Part shown: positions 57,172 to 64,000 of the stretch, piece after piece
How positions within the stretch are numbered: the stretch's first letter is position 1
Layout: each line of letters begins with the position of its first letter
DNA from: Lachnospiraceae bacterium
GTDB taxonomy: Bacteria; Bacillota; Clostridia; Lachnospirales; Lachnospiraceae
Reading direction: 5' to 3'
DNA length: 64,000 nucleotides
Assembly: GCA_017463225.1 (NCBI GenBank)
Contig: JAFTPO010000014.1
Location: 80,525-144,524, forward strand
Translations under genes and position numbers: made by a program
The notes under the pieces: generated by a model
What the model saw: the letters and a program-made list of their open reading frames with translations, nothing else
What the model was told of the DNA's origin: nothing
Databases searched by the model: none

Positions 57172-57423
57172 ATGAGAACCTATATTGAAGAACGAGCTAT
57201 GGCTATAGCATCATATATAATTGATGAGGAGGCGACAGTCAGGCAGGCTGCTAAGAAATTTGGCGTCAGCAAGTCCACAGTGCACAAGGATGTATCTGAG
57301 AGACTAATGTACATAAATAAGAATCTGGCCAGGGAGGTCAGAAAGGTTTTAGACGTGAACAAGGCAGAGAGACATATCAGGGGAGGACTGGCAACCAAGG
57401 AGAAATATTCCAGGGAAATATAA
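57172..57423 (+). CDS. spoIIID: Sporulation transcriptional regulator SpoIIID
   Basis: 83 residues, the usual size. It has the helix-turn-helix AAKKFGVSKSTVHKDVSERL, practically the SpoIIID consensus, and the basic C-terminal tail RHIRGGLATKEKYSRE. In spore-formers it acts in the mother cell after engulfment, switching sigma-E genes on or off and helping sigK. The N-terminus MRTYIEERAMAIASYI aligns with known SpoIIID starts, which fixes ATG 57172 although no proper ribosome binding site precedes it. Its presence suggests the organism sporulates or descends from a spore-former. Confidence 0.93.
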   Translation: MRTYIEERAMAIASYIIDEEATVRQAAKKFGVSKSTVHKDVSERLMYINKNLAREVRKVLDVNKAERHIRGGLATKEKYSREI

Positions 57424-57501: not shown

Positions 57502-58569
57502 ATGAAATTTTTACATTTGGCTGATGTACATATCGGTGCTACTCCGGATAAGGGAAAGCCTTGGGGCGGCAGAAGATCCGATGAGATATATGACAGCTTT
57601 AAAAATATAATAAAGGTTTGCGAAGAACAGCAGGTGGATTTGCTTCTTATAGCAGGTGATTTGTTTGATGCACCTCCTACTATCCAGCAGCTTAGAGAGC
57701 TGGATTATCAGCTGAGACTTATGCAGGGAACTAAGACAGTTCTCATAGCCGGTAACCATGATTATATCGAGGAGGGGTCACCTTGGGAGACCTATAAATT
57801 CCAGTCAGACCTGTTTATTATGCCTAGGGATAAGGCGACTAATGTTTACATAGAGGAGCTTAATGTGTGTATAACAGGCTACAGCTATGGTAGGCAGGAG
57901 TACACTGAGAGGATATTAGAAAGACTTAAACCTGGAAGAGAGGGTGCATATAACATTCTCTTAGGTCACGGTGGAGATACCACACATATGCCATTTTCTA
58001 AGGAAAAGCTTGCCGGCTTAGGCTTTGATTATGTGGCCTTGGGACACATTCATAAGCCTGCCCACATCATAAAGAATAAGATGGCATTTCCAGGCTCCTT
58101 AGAGCCACTTGACCACACTGAGACAGGAAGAAGAGGCTACATTATGGGTGAGCTTAGTGGCAGTGGTAACACTGTGATTCAGTGGATACCATGTAACAAG
58201 CGTAGCTACGTGAATATGACCCTGGAGCTTAATCCGGACATAGTCAACTCAGAGATTATGGACAATGTGGAGGATGAGATAAGAAGAATCGGTAAGGACA
58301 ATATCTATAAGATTAATCTTACAGGCTGCGTGGACAGTAATCTGCAGATAAACTTAAGTGGACTTACACGAGAATACTTTATATATGAGATAAATGATAA
58401 TACCCATCCTAATTATGATATAGAGGAGCTTCTCATGGTAAATGAGAATAACCTTTTGGGTAGATTTATAAAGGCTATGTCAGATAATGAAAGCCTGGAG
58501 AAACCGGAGATAAGAGAGCGAGCCTTAAAGTATGGTGTTGAGGCCTTGCTTGGAGTTGGAGATAATTAA
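57502..58569 (+). CDS. SbcD/YhaO-like metallophosphoesterase (DNA repair exonuclease)
   Basis: About 355 residues of the Mre11/SbcD family. The metal-binding motifs are all present: LADVHIG (D-x-H), LLIAGDLFD (GD), VLIAGNHDY (GNHD), ILLGHGGDT and ALGHIHKP (GHxH). The size and partner fit YhaO of Bacillus better than SbcD. It should cut DNA ends together with the ATPase of the next gene, with which it shares a TAATG stop-start overlap. GTG 57493 is an alternative start, but ATG 57502 gives the family N-terminus KFLHLADVHIG and is well spaced from GAGGTG. Confidence 0.88.
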   Translation: MKFLHLADVHIGATPDKGKPWGGRRSDEIYDSFKNIIKVCEEQQVDLLLIAGDLFDAPPTIQQLRELDYQLRLMQGTKTVLIAGNHDYIEEGSPWETYKFQSDLFIMPRDKATNVYIEELNVCITGYSYGRQEYTERILERLKPGREGAYNILLGHGGDTTHMPFSKEKLAGLGFDYVALGHIHKPAHIIKNKMAFPGSLEPLDHTETGRRGYIMGELSGSGNTVIQWIPCNKRSYVNMTLELNPDIVNSEIMDNVEDEIRRIGKDNIYKINLTGCVDSNLQINLSGLTREYFIYEINDNTHPNYDIEELLMVNENNLLGRFIKAMSDNESLEKPEIRERALKYGVEALLGVGDN

Positions 58570-60401
58570 TGTTTCTGAATAAGTTATTACTTAAGGATTT
58601 CGGAAAATTTAATAATAAGGAGATAGAGCTTAAGCCAGGTCTAAATCTTATATATGGTGGCAATGAAGCTGGTAAGACCACTATAAAGGATTTTATAGTA
58701 GGTATGTTTTATGGCATAGAAAAGGCCAGAGGACTTAAGGCAAGATTTGATGATTATGAGCTTAGAAAGCCACTTAGTGGAAGAGGCTTTTCCGGAAAGG
58801 CTTATATAAAAAAGGATGACAAGTCATACTTTATCGAGAGAAGCTTCTTGAGACATAGTAGAAAGGTTACTATGATGGATGTAGCCTCCGGTAGGGAGGT
58901 TAAGCTTAATAATTTCAACAATTTGCAGGGAACCTTATTTGAGTTGGACAAGAACACCTATGAGAATACACTTTGTATAGGTGAGGAGGGTGCTGCTCCG
59001 GGACAGAGCTTAGCTTCGGAGATGAGCAATTACCTGTCCAATCTGTCTACCTCTGGTTCAGTGGATATTGATAAGGATAAGGCTATAGCGAGGCTTAAGG
59101 AAGAGAAGAAAAAATTCGATACCAGAGCTATGAAGCACAGGGTTGATGTCATCGCTCAGGATATATTAGAGTATAAGGGCTTGGATGAGGAGCTTAAGGA
59201 CATAAGAGAGCAGATATCTAAGGTGGAGCAGGAATTTGCTATGGAGACTGCCCGTAGAAAGAGAGAGGCTCGTAAGCTTATAGAAAGTCAGAGCATCAAG
59301 GATGAGGATTCTGAGGAGATTAAGACTGAGGAGACGGTTGAGGGCACTGTTGATAGCAGTGAGAAAGCTGAAGCTCAGAGTGAAGTAGTGGAGGCAGCGG
59401 ATAAGAATGTAAAAGATGTTGCCACAGATAAAACAGATGCTCAGCCGGAAGAAGAGTCAGAAGACAAGAAGGAACAGCTTAGAAAGAAAGCACTGTTCTT
59501 AGATGCGGACTTGGTAAAGGATTATAAGCGAGAGGTACCATTTTGCGATAGGCTGTGGGTAATCCTCTTAACAGGATTATTTGTTGTGGCAGTAATAGCT
59601 GCTATGGTTTATATACTTCCATTTGAGAAGAGTGTAAGACAGCTTTTCATTATATGTACTATAATGTTTGTAATTATAACCATAGTGGAGGGTATGTACT
59701 CCAAGGGTATGCTAAGTGGTGAGATATATACGCCTACGGAAGAGGAATTCGAGCGTATGATATATGACCTTGAGCGTAAGCAGGAGACCTATGAAGAGGT
59801 TGAGATAGATATGTCCTTCGCACAGGAATATTTAGATAAGAAGGCAGAGCTTTTGGCTCAGGAGAAGGAGCTTTTCGCTAAGCAGGAGAAGGTTAGAGAG
59901 CTTGAAGAGGAGCTTAAGGTTATGAATGGCAGATTAGATGAGCTTGAAAGAGAGATTCACATAATCAACCTTGCCATAAATACCATCAATGAGGTATCCT
60001 CTGAGATTCACGGTGACCTGGGCTTCCTGATAAATGATAACATATCAGATATAGTATCTAAGATAACAGATGGTAAGTATAAGGATGTCCGTATGGATGA
60101 GAAGCTTCATATAACAGTTAAGGACGAGGATTCCTATGTGGGCATAGAGTATTTAAGCGCAGGTACCATGGAGCAGATATATCTTGCAGTGAGATTAAGC
60201 GTAGCAAGACTTTTGTGCAGGGACAAGATGCCACTTATTATAGATGATATCTTTACTGCCTATGATGAGACAAGGCTGGTAAATACCCTGGACTGTCTTA
60301 AGACCATAGACACAGAGCAGATTATACTTATGACCAGCAATCCACACATTGGAGATATGCTGGACGACTTAGATATGGATTACAACTATGTAGAGCTTTA
60401 A
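58569..60401 (+). CDS. YhaN/SbcC-like ATPase with internal membrane helices
   Basis: 610 residues. The N-terminal half of an ABC-type head has Walker A GGNEAGKTT (about residues 32-40). Then come a coiled coil, an acidic Glu/Lys linker (about 235-305), two hydrophobic helices (about 327-350 and 357-378), a second coiled coil, and the C-terminal half-head with the signature EYLSAGTMEQIYLAVRLS and Walker B PLIIDDIFTAYDE. This is the YhaN plan, in which the coiled-coil arm is interrupted by a membrane hairpin instead of a zinc hook. With the SbcD-like partner it probably forms a membrane-tethered end-processing complex. Confidence 0.88.
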   Translation: MFLNKLLLKDFGKFNNKEIELKPGLNLIYGGNEAGKTTIKDFIVGMFYGIEKARGLKARFDDYELRKPLSGRGFSGKAYIKKDDKSYFIERSFLRHSRKVTMMDVASGREVKLNNFNNLQGTLFELDKNTYENTLCIGEEGAAPGQSLASEMSNYLSNLSTSGSVDIDKDKAIARLKEEKKKFDTRAMKHRVDVIAQDILEYKGLDEELKDIREQISKVEQEFAMETARRKREARKLIESQSIKDEDSEEIKTEETVEGTVDSSEKAEAQSEVVEAADKNVKDVATDKTDAQPEEESEDKKEQLRKKALFLDADLVKDYKREVPFCDRLWVILLTGLFVVAVIAAMVYILPFEKSVRQLFIICTIMFVIITIVEGMYSKGMLSGEIYTPTEEEFERMIYDLERKQETYEEVEIDMSFAQEYLDKKAELLAQEKELFAKQEKVRELEEELKVMNGRLDELEREIHIINLAINTINEVSSEIHGDLGFLINDNISDIVSKITDGKYKDVRMDEKLHITVKDEDSYVGIEYLSAGTMEQIYLAVRLSVARLLCRDKMPLIIDDIFTAYDETRLVNTLDCLKTIDTEQIILMTSNPHIGDMLDDLDMDYNYVEL

Positions 60402-60440
60402 AGATATAGCATATGATAATTAAATAATTTGTGAGACGGA

Positions 60441-60487
60441 TTTTTCCACTCGTAGTTTAAATTTGAGACTACGGGTGGATTTTTTTG
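60441..60487 (+). terminator. Rho-independent terminator after the YhaN-like gene
   Basis: CCACTCGTAGT (60446-60456) pairs with ACTACGGGTGG (60468-60478), 11 bp with one wobble pair, followed by seven T residues. A T-run also precedes the stem. Confidence 0.9.
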
Positions 60488-60533
60488 TTTTCGTTTTCTA
60501 TATATAACCTAAGGCGGAAATTCGCAAAAAATA

Positions 60534-60558
60534 CTTATATGAAATATAGGGGAAAATT
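60534..60558 (+). promoter_or_regulatory. Repeated 25-bp element, copy 1
   Basis: Reads CTTATATGAAATATAGGGG followed by AAAATT. The core TATAT-GAA-ATATA is a perfect inverted repeat. It is 58 bases ahead of the ATG at 60617 and directly followed by a second palindrome TTGACT-G-AGTCAA (60560-60572). Here the left flank is not complementary to the right GGGGAAAATT, so conservation is not only for hairpin formation. Confidence 0.85.
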
Positions 60559-60616
60559 TTTGACTGAGTCAATAAGAATCCCATGAACAAATATTAAATT
60601 TTAGGAGGTAATTAAC

Positions 60617-61207
60617 ATGCAGAGCTTTAATGATACCGTAGTAACAAGATACATAGTAGAGGAAAAGGAGGACAGCTGTCAGATTATAGAGGGTGATGCT
60701 AGTAGTCTTCTAAAGCAGGGCTACAAGCCTAGAGATATGTATAGCTCTAAGCAAGAGGCTGTTGCAAGATATGAGCAGCATATGCGCTATGTTCTAAAAG
60801 GGCAGGAAATGCGAAGCGAATCATTTCGAGAGAAAATGATTAACAAATGCTTAAAAATGGAGGAGCGTAAACGTAAGAATGTGAAGGGCTATTCACGATT
60901 ATATATAGTTCCAAACCTAGAGGCCTTAGTAAGACTGGATGAAAACTGGCTTAAGGCATATAGCCGGATATTGGACTATTTAGGTGAAGAGGAAGGCATA
61001 TTCCCGGAATGTGGCTGGAGGCACTATGAGGGCTATAGCTTTAACTGTGGGTTTCCTTTGATGAGCAGATACATTATAAAGGCTGAGGCCAAAAAGGAGA
61101 TTATCAGAAAGCTTAAAGAGCGATTTGGTGCAGATATGTTTATAGAGATTAGATTTGTAGATAAGAAAGGAGATTACGATGATGAAGGATATCACTACTT
61201 TATGTAA
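60617..61207 (+). CDS. Unknown protein, first of a paralogous pair
   Basis: 196 residues, soluble, rich in charged residues and tyrosine, with no signal peptide or membrane helix. The N-terminal part has GDASSLLKQGYKPRDMYSS, which matches GHANDLLRRGFNELYSN in the next gene. The C-terminal part has EAKKEIIRKLKERFGADMFIEIRFV, matching KEEIIQQIYHIAGGEKYIESISF there, so the two are diverged paralogues in tandem. Cysteines are few and no catalytic motif is visible. AGGAGGT precedes the ATG, and copy 1 of the 25-bp element lies upstream. I do not recognise the family. Confidence 0.7.
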   Translation: MQSFNDTVVTRYIVEEKEDSCQIIEGDASSLLKQGYKPRDMYSSKQEAVARYEQHMRYVLKGQEMRSESFREKMINKCLKMEERKRKNVKGYSRLYIVPNLEALVRLDENWLKAYSRILDYLGEEEGIFPECGWRHYEGYSFNCGFPLMSRYIIKAEAKKEIIRKLKERFGADMFIEIRFVDKKGDYDDEGYHYFM

Positions 61208-61880
61208 TAAGGATACAGATGACAAGAGAGATATGGTGTGGGGAGTTAAGGTTGAGCCTAACTTTGCTGTAAAGATTGACAGGGGACATGCCAATGATCT
61301 GTTAAGAAGAGGCTTTAATGAGCTTTATAGTAACTGTTATTTGGCTGAGACACATGCCAGAGAGGTTAGGTCTAAGGTTATGGAGAGCAGGTTCTTTAGT
61401 CTTGACCCTGAAAAGGACAGAGCAAGATGCGAAAAGCTGGATGAGGCTTACTGGGTGAAGATACGTAGATACATACCTGGAGAGGGCATACAGCTTCTTC
61501 AGCGCAAATGCTGGATTGAGAGGCAGCAGTGTTTAACCGGCATTTACTATAAGCCAGACTTCAAGGCTATGGCGGCAGATAAGCTGGATTGGCAGCTAAT
61601 TCATATAGAAATCTGCCATATGCTTGAGAATGAACGTTTCCACAGGGAGGGAAGACAAAATAAGCATGAGGATGCCCTCTATGAGAAGGACTATTTTGAG
61701 GTATGCCTGAAGCAGCCTAGTATAGGCATGTTTTGCTTCGGAGTTCTAGATTCTGATACTAAGGAGGAGATTATACAACAAATATACCATATAGCCGGTG
61801 GTGAGAAGTACATAGAGTCAATTTCCTTTACCCTAGAGGAAAATCCAGCCTACGTGCCGGAGAGTCATGTACGATATTAG
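61179..61880 (+). CDS. Unknown protein, second of a paralogous pair
   Basis: 233 residues, soluble. It shares the [A]-x-x-LL-basic-basic-G-aromatic...Y-S block and the C-terminal E-I-I-x-x-I...I-E-x-I/R-F block with the preceding protein, with an extra central region (YWVKIRRYIPGEGIQLLQRKCWIE, in outline). The start ATG 61179 lies 29 bases inside the preceding gene and a second ATG follows at once; GGAG is upstream. The long overlap indicates coupled expression and suggests the two products act together. Function unknown. Confidence 0.7.
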   Translation: MMKDITTLCNKDTDDKRDMVWGVKVEPNFAVKIDRGHANDLLRRGFNELYSNCYLAETHAREVRSKVMESRFFSLDPEKDRARCEKLDEAYWVKIRRYIPGEGIQLLQRKCWIERQQCLTGIYYKPDFKAMAADKLDWQLIHIEICHMLENERFHREGRQNKHEDALYEKDYFEVCLKQPSIGMFCFGVLDSDTKEEIIQQIYHIAGGEKYIESISFTLEENPAYVPESHVRY

Positions 61881-61883
61881 TTT

Positions 61884-61922
61884 ATTGCACCTGTTCGCCT
61901 ATGTGTGAATGGGTGCAATTCC
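61884..61922 (+). terminator. Hairpin after the paralogous pair, touching element copy 2
   Basis: ATTGCACC (61884-61891) pairs with GGTGCAAT (61912-61919), and inside it TTCGC can pair with GTGAA. No real T-tract follows; copy 2 of the 25-bp element starts at 61922. It is a weak terminator at best. Confidence 0.45.
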
Positions 61923-61946
61923 TTATATGAAATATAGGGGAAAATT
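61922..61946 (+). promoter_or_regulatory. Repeated 25-bp element, copy 2
   Basis: Identical over the 25 bases to copy 1. It is one of two copies in front of the XRE regulator gene, with 37 bases between the starts of copies 2 and 3, about three and a half helical turns. Confidence 0.87.
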
Positions 61947-61958
61947 TACAATCATTTC

Positions 61959-61983
61959 CTTATATGAAATATAGGGGAAAATT
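61959..61983 (+). promoter_or_regulatory. Repeated 25-bp element, copy 3
   Basis: Identical over the 25 bases to the other copies and preceded by TTTC. It ends 80 bases before the ATG of the XRE gene. The doubled site here is the arrangement expected for autoregulation by the neighbouring regulator. Confidence 0.87.
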
Positions 61984-62063
61984 TTCCCCCGAGTGATTAT
62001 ATAGCTGCAGCAAAAATCACAATTAACATACAATATTTAATTTAAGTAAAGGAGAACAATACT

Positions 62064-62300
62064 ATGAATAATAATGTTTATTTAGACCCTGTTGCTATGA
62101 GCAACAACATTAAGAACCTCTGCGAGAGCAGAAACATCACAGCAACCAAGCTTCACAACGCCTTAGGTGATGTGTCAGTTCAGGGCTGCCACAAGTGGCT
62201 TAGAGGTGATGGCAGTATACCATCACTTGATAACCTGGTGAGAATCGCTCACTACTTGGATGTGAGCTTAGATGAGCTTGTTGCTATAACCAGGTATTAG
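62064..62300 (+). CDS. XRE/Cro-CI-type helix-turn-helix regulator
   Basis: 78 residues, essentially one HTH_XRE domain. Helices correspond to AMSNNIKNLCESRN, TATKLHNALG, VSVQGCHKWLRGD and SLDNLVRIAHYLDVSLDELVAI; the P-S-L-D-N-L and V-S-L-D-E-L blocks are typical. It binds DNA as a dimer, and the twin 25-bp elements directly upstream make it the prime candidate to recognise them. No second domain for ligand sensing is fused to it. The start has AAAGGAG upstream. The stop lies inside a perfect hairpin. Confidence 0.85.
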   Translation: MNNNVYLDPVAMSNNIKNLCESRNITATKLHNALGDVSVQGCHKWLRGDGSIPSLDNLVRIAHYLDVSLDELVAITRY

Positions 62301-62333
62301 AGCTAATTGCTCTAATACCTGCCCTTAGGGGCA
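62293..62333 (+). terminator. Double hairpin overlapping the end of the XRE gene
   Basis: GGTATTAGAGC (62293-62303) pairs perfectly with 62309-62319 and includes the TAG stop codon; TGCCC-TTA-GGGGCA follows at 62320-62333. No T-tract is present, so it may protect the 3' end or attenuate rather than terminate. Confidence 0.55.
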
Positions 62334-62384
62334 GATAAAATAACAATTAACAAAAATTATAAAAGAATAAAGGAGATAAAAACT

Positions 62385-63461
62385 ATGACAAATTATATTA
62401 CAACAAATTCAAACAATTACAGTAACTATAACGATTTAATGGAGGATAGATTTATGAATAACAGAGTACAGGAGATTAAGAATTCACTTACTGCATTTAG
62501 TCAGGATAAGTATAGAAAGAAGGATATGAAGGACGAGTACATTAAGCTTCAGCGTCAGGTGGTAGGTCTTGTTATGGGCCAGGAGGCAGCGCAGGATAAC
62601 AGCATCAATGTAAGAAAAGTTTCAGAGGTAATCAAGGAGACTTGCGCCCACAATGACAAGGTAGATCCAAAGCTTATGTACAAGACCTTACATCATCTAA
62701 AGAAGCTTTCTAATGCTATAGCAGGAGAGATACGTGGACTTCATGGAGAGACTATTGTAACAGCCTTTATAGACAATATAGATTGCAACAAGCTTATGCT
62801 TAAGGGTATTGAGCTTGAAAGTGAGGGTATCAGAACCGAGATAGACAATCTGGTAATTACCAAGCGAGGAGCTTTCATCGTAGAGGTGAAGAACGTATCC
62901 GGCGAGGTAATTATAGATGAGGATGGAAGTCTGAGAAAGAAGAGTGCCGTGGATGGTACATTTGTTGGTGAGGGCAATATCTATGAGAAGATGGTTGTGA
63001 AGGAGGCTTTAGTGAAGAAGGCTATAAAGGCAGCTTTAAGCAAGGAGGTAAGAGTATCTCATATAGTTGTGTTCACAGACCACAGTGTCCAGATTACAAA
63101 TAACTGTGAGTACATAAATGTCCGCGACTTATCTGAGCTTCAGGAGATCATAATGGATACCACTGTTAAGAAGATATACACCGAGCATGACATGGAAAAG
63201 ATAGTGGATAGTGTAAAGTCTATGGAGAATTACGGCTATTATGCCCCAAACATAGAGGCGTCTAAGCTTAAGAATAATTTGGCTACCCTTATGGTGACAC
63301 TTGCGCAGGATCAGATTGAAGAAGAGGACAACAAAAGCTTCGGTATGGCAGAGCCTGTAGTTGTAGGCAATCAGAACAAGAAAGTAAAGATGAAGTACAA
63401 AATCATCATGGGTGTAGCTAATTGGCTTATGGATATGGTGCCGGATGATATGGCATCGTAG
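62385..63461 (+). CDS. NERD-domain protein (nuclease-related)
   Basis: 358 residues. The central part (about 108-230) is a NERD domain with LHGETIVTAFID, IRTEIDNLVITKRGAFIVEVKNVSG (the D...E-V-K core of a PD-(D/E)xK nuclease fold) and a later SHIVVFTD. NERD proteins are suspected nucleases, some linked to plasmids or defence. The first about 23 residues are Asn/Tyr/Thr-rich (MTNYITTNSNNYSNYNDL). An in-frame ATG at 62454 has ATGGAGGAT just ahead, so a shorter product MNNRVQEI... is possible. A C-terminal hydrophobic segment (IIMGVANWLMDMV) may be amphipathic. The gene sits between the XRE gene and element copy 4. Confidence 0.82.
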   Translation: MTNYITTNSNNYSNYNDLMEDRFMNNRVQEIKNSLTAFSQDKYRKKDMKDEYIKLQRQVVGLVMGQEAAQDNSINVRKVSEVIKETCAHNDKVDPKLMYKTLHHLKKLSNAIAGEIRGLHGETIVTAFIDNIDCNKLMLKGIELESEGIRTEIDNLVITKRGAFIVEVKNVSGEVIIDEDGSLRKKSAVDGTFVGEGNIYEKMVVKEALVKKAIKAALSKEVRVSHIVVFTDHSVQITNNCEYINVRDLSELQEIIMDTTVKKIYTEHDMEKIVDSVKSMENYGYYAPNIEASKLKNNLATLMVTLAQDQIEEEDNKSFGMAEPVVVGNQNKKVKMKYKIIMGVANWLMDMVPDDMAS

Positions 63462-63476
63462 ATTCTAATATAGATG

Positions 63477-63515
63477 AGGAATTTCCCTTATATGAAATAT
63501 AGGGGAAAATTCCTT
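63477..63515 (+). promoter_or_regulatory. Repeated 25-bp element, copy 4, inside an 18-bp near-perfect inverted repeat
   Basis: The 25-base element is at 63488-63512. Flanks extend its symmetry: 63477-63494 pairs with 63498-63515 around the GAA loop, with one mismatch and one wobble in 18 pairs. As RNA it would be a stable hairpin just ahead of AAGGAGGTG. As DNA it is a long operator-like palindrome. Confidence 0.87.
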
Positions 63516-63529
63516 AAGGAGGTGATTTA

Positions 63530-63544
63530 TGACTAAGAGATAAG
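63530..63544 (+). CDS. Possible four-codon leader ORF (MTKR)
   Basis: ATG ACT AAG AGA TAA preceded by AAGGAGGTG five bases upstream, an almost ideal ribosome binding site, and lying right after copy 4 of the 25-bp element. It is too short to be a functional protein by itself. It might be a translated leader controlling the membrane-protein gene 56 bases downstream, or the remnant of a gene whose start survives. Confidence 0.35.
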
Positions 63545-63599
63545 ACCAATATAATCTATGACAATATAACTAATTTTTATAATATAGGAGGATATAAAT

Positions 63600-64000
63600 A
63601 TGAGTAACAATACAATTAATAATAACAATATTTTAAATAATAAGGAGGACAAGAATATGAATAAGAATAACAAGTCAGGATTTTATGGTGTGGTAGCACT
63701 GGTTGCCATGTGCCTTATGGCATTTGTAGCAGGTGCTGTGGTTGGAAACTGGAGAGACTCCCGCAGGGAGGATAAGAAGGATGTAGCCCAGAATGGAGAC
63801 AATATGGGACACATAGAGACCAAGCTTACATACGTGGACAGCCAGGGTAACGATTACGGCTTAGACGCAGATATCGTGATGCAGGACGGAAAGGAGTGTG
63901 TAGTAGTAGGTGGTGAGTACATACCTGTAGCCAAGAAGCAAATCGCAGTATTTGTGGAAGGTACACCTGAGAACAGTGAGTATGCTGATTCTGACCAGGA
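63600..64000 (+). CDS. Membrane-anchored protein, N-terminal part (3' end outside window)
   Basis: Open from ATG 63600 to the last base of the window (133 complete codons). The first 19 residues are Asn-rich (MSNNTINNNNILNN). AAGGAGG then occurs inside the frame, seven bases before a second ATG at 63657, giving MNKNNKSGFYG; this may be the real start. One membrane helix (about residues 28-49, GVVALVAMCLMAFVAGAVVG) is followed by an exported or cytoplasmic region with YVDSQGNDYGLDADIVMQDG. The Asn-rich prefix followed by an internal ribosome binding site parallels the NERD gene. No family recognised. Confidence 0.7.
   Translation, partial: MSNNTINNNNILNNKEDKNMNKNNKSGFYGVVALVAMCLMAFVAGAVVGNWRDSRREDKKDVAQNGDNMGHIETKLTYVDSQGNDYGLDADIVMQDGKECVVVGGEYIPVAKKQIAVFVEGTPENSEYADSDQ

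Follow-up and report, generated by a model that had tools for sequence, protein, structure and literature searches.

The window analysed here, a stretch of 64,000 nucleotides (nt) from a Lachnospiraceae bacterium (assembly GCA_017463225.1, contig JAFTPO010000014.1), is the end of a contig, C89, of a 2.77-Mb genome assembly in 95 contigs. Near its right end lies a 25-nt element, CTTATATGAAATATAGGGGAAAATT, hereafter the 25-mer, which occurs in four exact copies on the plus strand (60534-60558, 61922-61946, 61959-61983 and 63487-63511), all intergenic and each oriented toward the plus-strand gene behind it. A preliminary description of this DNA had reported four exact copies, each intergenic, upstream of a gene and found nowhere else in the window; these statements held, save that the fourth copy starts at 63487 rather than 63488. 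Allowing up to three mismatches added no further match in the window, and 100 dinucleotide shuffles yielded no match at all, indicating that the copies are not due to chance. The features of the locus are the following.

58569..60401, plus strand: SbcC-like AAA ATPase, the left chromosomal border (PF13514/PF13476; named by eye; in 35 of 37 genomes of the genus)
60445..60479, plus strand: terminator-like hairpin, 3' of the SbcC-like gene and 5' of copy 1
60534..60558, plus strand: 25-mer copy 1, exact, 64 nt (from GGGG) upstream of P1
60617..61207, plus strand: P1, 196 residues (no NCBIfam, PHROG or PADLOC family; one Pfam match at E 0.12, below cut-off)
61179..61880, plus strand: P2, 233 residues (no family in Pfam, NCBIfam, PHROG or PADLOC)
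61922..61946, plus strand: 25-mer copy 2, exact, first of a tandem pair upstream of the XRE gene
61959..61983, plus strand: 25-mer copy 3, exact, 86 nt upstream of the XRE gene
62064..62300, plus strand: XRE-type regulator, 78 residues (HTH_3, E 4.6e-10)
62385..63461, plus strand: NERD-domain protein, 358 residues (PF08378, E 4.8e-13)
63487..63511, plus strand: 25-mer copy 4, 24 nt upstream of a 4-codon open reading frame (ORF) and 94 nt upstream of the membrane-protein ORF
63600..64000, plus strand: membrane protein (by eye), cut at the window end; 196 residues on contig C69

A search of the whole genome with mismatches identified nine exact matches to a 19-mer of the element: four in the window, four on contig C69 and one on contig C77 (at 587), 57 nt upstream of a sigma-70-family gene. 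Because C69:1-4449 is the same DNA as window 59552-64000 (99.98% identity, with a single A/T mismatch at 63481, 6 nt upstream of copy 4), the distinct copies in the genome number five. Every one of them stands 24-123 nt upstream of an ATG in the same direction, and the tandem copies 2 and 3 have a start-to-start spacing of 37 bp, about 3.5 turns. Two further genome matches at three mismatches were at chance level, the reversed control pattern giving four. Among 98 related genomes nothing closer than two mismatches was found, all matches being at exactly two, and the share of genomes with matches (10/98, versus 15/98 for the reversed control) was again that of chance. A 22-letter pattern, CTTATATNAAATATAGGGGAAA, had zero matches in 84,980 species genomes, a set in which the genome studied here is possibly absent and short contigs are not included. 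The two other contigs contribute the following genes.

L002 4708-9436, minus strand: YonO/RdRP-like (RNA-dependent RNA polymerase-like) polymerase of 1193 residues with a 384-residue partner that begins MLNE (PF05183 RdRP, E 7e-12)
L003 (C77) 663-1631, 25-mer upstream: sigma-70-family factor, 322 residues (Pfam regions 2, 3 and 4; region 3 below cut-off)

To place these contigs relative to each other, the DNA downstream of the SbcC-like gene was compared with that of 10 genomes of the genus, 2 of which were uninformative, with less than 500 nt to the contig end. In seven of the eight informative relatives prs stands directly next after the SbcC-like gene (genome G024 differs), followed by DnaI-like, DnaD-like and murC genes, and in six of these seven the order continues to nadB and nadC (names Pfam-supported). 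In the genome of the window, the cluster follows the SbcC-like gene, and prs to nadC lie on C77, after the sigma gene and the two genes that accompany it, S570 and S335. C69 ends within the left part of a copy of an insertion sequence (IS), labelled IS3-type by eye, and C77 starts with the right part; the 18-nt end repeats of the IS agree at 17 of 18 positions, and ACC is present on both flanks, as in a 3-bp target duplication. On the grounds of the synteny of the relatives and of the matching IS ends flanked by ACC, we conclude that C89/C69, the IS and C77 make up a single insertion, about 13 kb long without the IS, between the SbcC-like gene and prs, hereafter the island. Within the membrane-protein gene, a stretch of about 177 nt is repeated in diverged form (84.7% identity; window 63786-63960 and L002 4454-4628), which coincides with the point where C89 and C69 diverge.

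The order of the island is P1, P2, XRE, NERD and membrane protein; then, antisense, the 384-residue protein and the 1193-residue polymerase; then the IS; and finally sigma, S570 and S335. Each plus-strand unit is preceded by a 25-mer, and the XRE gene by two; the antisense polymerase gene has no 25-mer but a match to TTGATA-17-TGaTATAAT instead. The set proposed in the preliminary description, the cluster at 60.6-64 kb as a whole, therefore lacked the copy in front of the sigma gene, and the supposed paralogy of P1 and P2 found no support (a BLAST alignment of only 25 residues, E 0.74). Its idea of a small dedicated regulon agrees well with five distinct copies on a single island, all upstream of genes and without scatter. 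The island looks foreign and orphan-rich, and horizontally acquired, since the NERD protein (E 1e-10) and sigma (E 1e-30) turned up in this genome alone among 37 of the genus, sigma in it alone among 397 genomes of the family (E 1e-35), and S570 in it alone among 391 genomes of the class (E 1e-4). S570 also had no relatives in plasmids, phages or viral contigs, the NERD protein none in plasmids or viral contigs, and P2 no tblastn match in phages; for sigma, peptide patterns found none in viral contigs, and phages and plasmids gave distant matches only.

Exact-pattern scans of 2.9 million viral contigs and the 84,980 species genomes showed the element, exact or with one change, nowhere beyond the island except on a single lineage. 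The viral-classified contig IMGVR_UViG_3300032167_003270 (290,311 bp), hereafter the 290-kb element, carries two exact 19-mers and a third copy that differs from them at one position (G to A), the only natural variant of the 19-mer; a second contig of the same lineage (38,850 bp) carries one exact copy. Rescanning both records at up to three mismatches gave no additional copies. The three sites of the 290-kb element are all upstream of genes and in gene orientation, which are, in turn, Thg1 (tRNA-His guanylyltransferase), a gene labelled Hint-like by eye, for which Pfam gave no match, and a group of small ORFs. The contig has 27% G+C, 97.6% of its crudely called gene length on one strand and at least 33 tRNA genes. 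Family scans of 28 of its approximately 398 called ORFs identified split RNA polymerase subunits, a gyrase/topoisomerase IV subunit A, DnaB, a UvsX/RecA-like protein, SecY, an FtsH-like protease, a flotillin-like protein, NrdD and a VirB11-type ATPase (PF00437, E 5.4e-35), together with a VirB4-type match below cut-off. The contig also has two sigma genes. No capsid, portal or tail family was detected among the 28 ORFs, and two ATPases gave terminase-type PHROG matches (E 1.2e-9 and 1.8e-4); the contig could be a very large phage or else a giant element that spreads by conjugation. When ten island proteins were compared with it (tblastn, phmmer), no relative was found except for sigma.

The 290-kb element also contains a second promoter-like motif devoid of a -35 part, ACTATTTAATTATAA (L042-L056). 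It has 46 matches at up to two mismatches to the 16-mer, 41 of them on the gene strand and some possibly inside ORFs; 12 of the 46 lie within 30 nt of an ATG, GTG or TTG with a crude Shine-Dalgarno sequence. The third 25-mer copy of the element is located 20 nt upstream of one such motif. Two broader patterns were tried on the viral contigs and rejected: a looser 16-mer gave 57 stretches, of which the 54 outside the two known contigs were all without GGGG behind, many of them with a common flank, and a right-half pattern added one extra contig (L121), its match lying inside an ORF. One more Thg1 relative was found besides the two known contigs (56% identity), with no 25-mer seen just upstream.

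Comparison of the eight distinct sites revealed a constant part, CTTATATRAAATATAGGGG, followed by 3-5 A and at least two T, with no constant position left of the C. Seven of the eight are alike over 22 nt and six over all 25. The symmetry emphasized in the preliminary description stands for the dyad core, TATAT-GAA-ATATA, yet the conservation is one-sided, and the conserved part as a whole is asymmetric, with a C on the left and GGGG-AAA on the right. The element can be read as an extended -10 promoter, TTATA-TG-A-[AATATA]-GGGG, consisting of TGn, an altered hexamer and the GGGG, which we take to be a G-rich discriminator. At the Thg1 and Hint-like sites of the 290-kb element, 26 and 29 nt respectively separate the GGGG from the start codon, and a Shine-Dalgarno sequence lies in that interval; because the start codons follow the GGGG so closely at these sites and at 63487 (24 nt), a transcription start far downstream would be unlikely there. 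A terminator-like hairpin precedes both the copy at 60534 and the third site of the mobile element (the latter by eye).

Analysis of the sigma factor indicated that its region 2.4 departs from that of SigA (YANLIIRRRVTD vs YATWWIRQAITR), the paired tryptophans being lost and the neighbouring glutamine changed, and that region 4.2 retains SRERVRQIE and with it the recognition helix. With the roles that we presume for these residues, an altered region 2.4 beside a kept region 4.2 is expected of a factor reading an altered -10, and a copy of the 25-mer upstream of the sigma gene is as expected of autoregulation. We consider it about an even chance (probability roughly 0.5) that the acquired island has a dedicated set of genes under autoregulation, with the 25-mer as its core promoter and the island's sigma factor as the reader. 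In this model, sigma from C77 would direct the host RNA polymerase to the 25-mer through the extended -10 and the GGGG, with no conserved -35, and transcription would start a few bases after the GGGG. Sigma would thereby activate its own gene together with S570 and S335, the P1-P2 and XRE-NERD units and the membrane-protein gene. The XRE protein, with two copies upstream, would more likely be one of the targets, or act in feedback, than head the circuit.

Several observations weigh against this assignment. The strictness of conservation, over 22-25 nt, exceeds that of usual sigma promoters and would be equally compatible with a polymerase of phage type or with a specific repressor. A -35 is absent from the conserved part across the eight sites (TTTACA stands at a fitting distance in two of them, by eye), although region 4.2 seems able to read one. 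The two sigma factors of the 290-kb element are only distantly similar to that of the island (24-28%), which scores 78 bits against SigA and 60 and 51 bits against them. The promoter-like match in front of the polymerase gene is a consensus match only, such matches in the C69 stretch being at shuffle level (26 vs 26.4). It is the strict conservation, the missing -35 and the distance of the mobile-element sigmas that hold our confidence at one half.

The occurrence of the 25-mer on the 290-kb element bears on a second explanation, in which the signal is native to the giant element and read by one of that element's factors, either a sigma or the split RNA polymerase. The island would then carry the signal in order to be turned on upon entry of the giant element, as an infection-responsive satellite or defence island. 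All copies outside the island are confined to that lineage, with none in the species genomes scanned (the own genome possibly being absent from them), and the element has an RNA polymerase and two sigma factors of its own, as well as the second promoter-like motif. There are, however, only three copies in 290 kb, infection of this host by the element is hypothetical, and the island's own sigma gene behind the 25-mer would suffice. We regard this explanation as rather unlikely.

The preliminary description had named the XRE protein as the obvious binder, which would make the 25-mer an operator through which this protein shuts off the XRE gene along with the remaining units. The dyad core and the two sites upstream of the regulator's own gene are consistent with this proposal, and autoregulation is common among XRE proteins. 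Binding by XRE is possible, but the proposal is weakened by the copy in front of the sigma gene and by the copies on the 290-kb element, on which no XRE relative was found (phmmer E 0.01, tblastn E 0.1; single-sequence searches, which an unrelated helix-turn-helix protein could escape). The 37-bp spacing of the tandem copies, at about 3.5 turns, is unphased for side-by-side binding, and beyond the dyad the conservation is on one side only. We hold an XRE operator to be distinctly unlikely.

The element could instead work at the RNA level, forming in the 5' leader a hairpin (a U.G pair allowed) to which a protein or a nuclease binds. The core hairpin is the minimum-energy fold in five of the six copies folded, long stems are formed at 63487 (-12.7 kcal/mol) and on C77 (-13.6 kcal/mol), and the C77 copy also scores as terminator-like. 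The fold is weak (-3.2 kcal/mol), however, at 60534 and at the mobile-element site tested, a different fold is found at 61959, and covariation is not assessable because the copies are nearly identical. We consider a leader hairpin improbable. Improbable to a similar degree is a promoter for the island's YonO/RdRP-like single-chain polymerase, whose gene adjoins the element cluster; as of 2017 the promoter read by YonO was unknown (PMC5467207). The surroundings of its relatives in five genomes of the family (L091-L095 and L106-L110, up to 19 kb each) contain no 25-mer at up to three mismatches, the closest being one 4-mismatch match at a single place of genome G307 that is present in two of the loci, and a search of the giant element detected no homologue of the polymerase. 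A role as a dispersed repeat or as a site of recombination, to which exact copies in a single orientation at gene-module borders might point, is very unlikely, as five distinct copies on one island, set shortly before same-direction start codons, are not the hundreds of scattered copies of a repeat like a miniature inverted-repeat transposable element, and, the IS apart, a scan of 10 island proteins brought up no recombinase (the island ends were not searched for repeats).

Further features of the island genes were observed. The DFDGD motif of the polymerase is invariant in five aligned relatives, and the protein belongs to PHROG 8308, of unknown function; it had no match among solved structures by sequence profile. 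A whole-genome search (E 1e-10) found 15 other relatives among 397 genomes, and in four aligned genomes of the family the polymerase is likewise paired with a partner (328-374 residues, 16-23% identical). Short peptide patterns for the RdRP-like protein had no match in genome contigs. Four of eight island genes encode Asn-rich starts (at least six Asn in the first 22 residues; window 62064-62300, 62385-63461 and 63600-64000, and L003 663-1631), versus 1 of 46 window ORFs of at least 100 residues. In the NERD, membrane-protein and sigma genes, a second in-frame Shine-Dalgarno sequence and ATG follow the Asn-rich stretch (by eye). Upstream of the sigma gene, L003 168-398 contains a perfect match to TTGACA-17-TATAAT and then an RNA of about 198 nt that scores as structured (z -4.48), ends in a terminator-like hairpin (362-391) and is followed by a 25-codon ORF (by eye), the 25-mer and the sigma gene. 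This RNA is a candidate small RNA or attenuated leader of the sigma gene; Rfam gave no match at the gathering threshold on L001-L003, and weak sub-threshold matches to the leader RNA were dismissed. Left of the island, a SpoIIID gene is present (window 57172-57423; PF12116, E 1.3e-40), and the host is therefore probably a spore former or the descendant of one.

As for the role of the island, defence is a guess. The NERD domain occurs in known systems, and the NERD protein gave short, weak matches to PglW and MAD6; the XRE protein matches the candidate family PDC-M69A (E 3e-6). PADLOC identified no complete system among the 10 island proteins. The presence of the 25-mer on both the island and the giant element suggests that both may obey one common switch, through either a cross-talk like that between P4 and P2 or an infection-sensing island. 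An island tuned to an incoming giant element, carrying its rare promoter and being infection-responsive or satellite-like, is the most interesting reading because of this link, and we put it forward as a tentative possibility. If it were true, the machinery of the invader, or the island sigma acting on both, would fire a NERD-bearing, sigma-amplified chromosomal response, which would amount to a sequence-specific infection alarm or to a satellite hijacking the invader's transcription. A chromosomal island and a giant extrachromosomal element would then use one rare promoter class, offering a handle on who controls whom. The system would also provide a sigma factor whose promoter is unusual and simple to assay, and would bring the NERD protein, the YonO-like polymerase and several orphans together in one testable unit.

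Literature searches gave no title or abstract describing such an island; text searches of this kind cannot find the sequence of the element and hence are no proof of novelty. Several known systems invite comparison. T7-type promoters are compact and invariant, with TATA directly before GGG, and the 25-mer is likewise compact and invariant, with TATA before GGGG; a search for a T7-type polymerase (PF00940) found none in the genome or in the two contigs searched, the control being silent too, so that the result is uninformative. The 1193-residue protein resembles YonO-like polymerases in its RdRP match and DxDGD motif; here it is accompanied by a weakly conserved partner of 328-384 residues. Models of MzaA, the sigma-like protein of the MZA anti-phage system, match the island sigma across its sigma regions (94.7 bits in NCBIfam, E 5.8e-17 in PADLOC), but the NCBIfam cut-off is 800 bits, other sigma models score higher, and PADLOC recognised no partner gene among the 10 island proteins; these sub-cut-off matches may reflect general sigma similarity.

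In satellites of the P4-like or PICI (phage-inducible chromosomal island) type, integrase, helper-hijack and packaging genes are the distinguishing features. No integrase, packaging or capsid-hijack gene was recognised here with Pfam, NCBIfam and PADLOC (10 island proteins) or PHROGs (9), although many of the proteins are orphans and may include such genes in unfamiliar form; what the island has is a transcription signal common to it and the 290-kb element, and a helper relation is hypothetical. In P4 and P2, delta of P4 is a homologue of ogr of P2, and each promotes the late genes of both elements (PMC8628076). The likeness lies in a transcription control common to two mobile elements; the difference is that the candidate factor here is a sigma-70-family protein, with a hypothetical link to infection. 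The island proteins and sites also allow a comparison on the bacterial side. Alternative sigma regulons typically comprise an autoregulated sigma gene and a handful of targets under one promoter element. The island likewise has a sigma gene, encoding sigma-70 regions 2 and 4 and standing behind the same 25-mer, and few targets behind one element. It differs from such regulons in being limited to one island, with a near-invariant signal of 22-25 nt that has no conserved -35 and is shared with a 290-kb mobile element.

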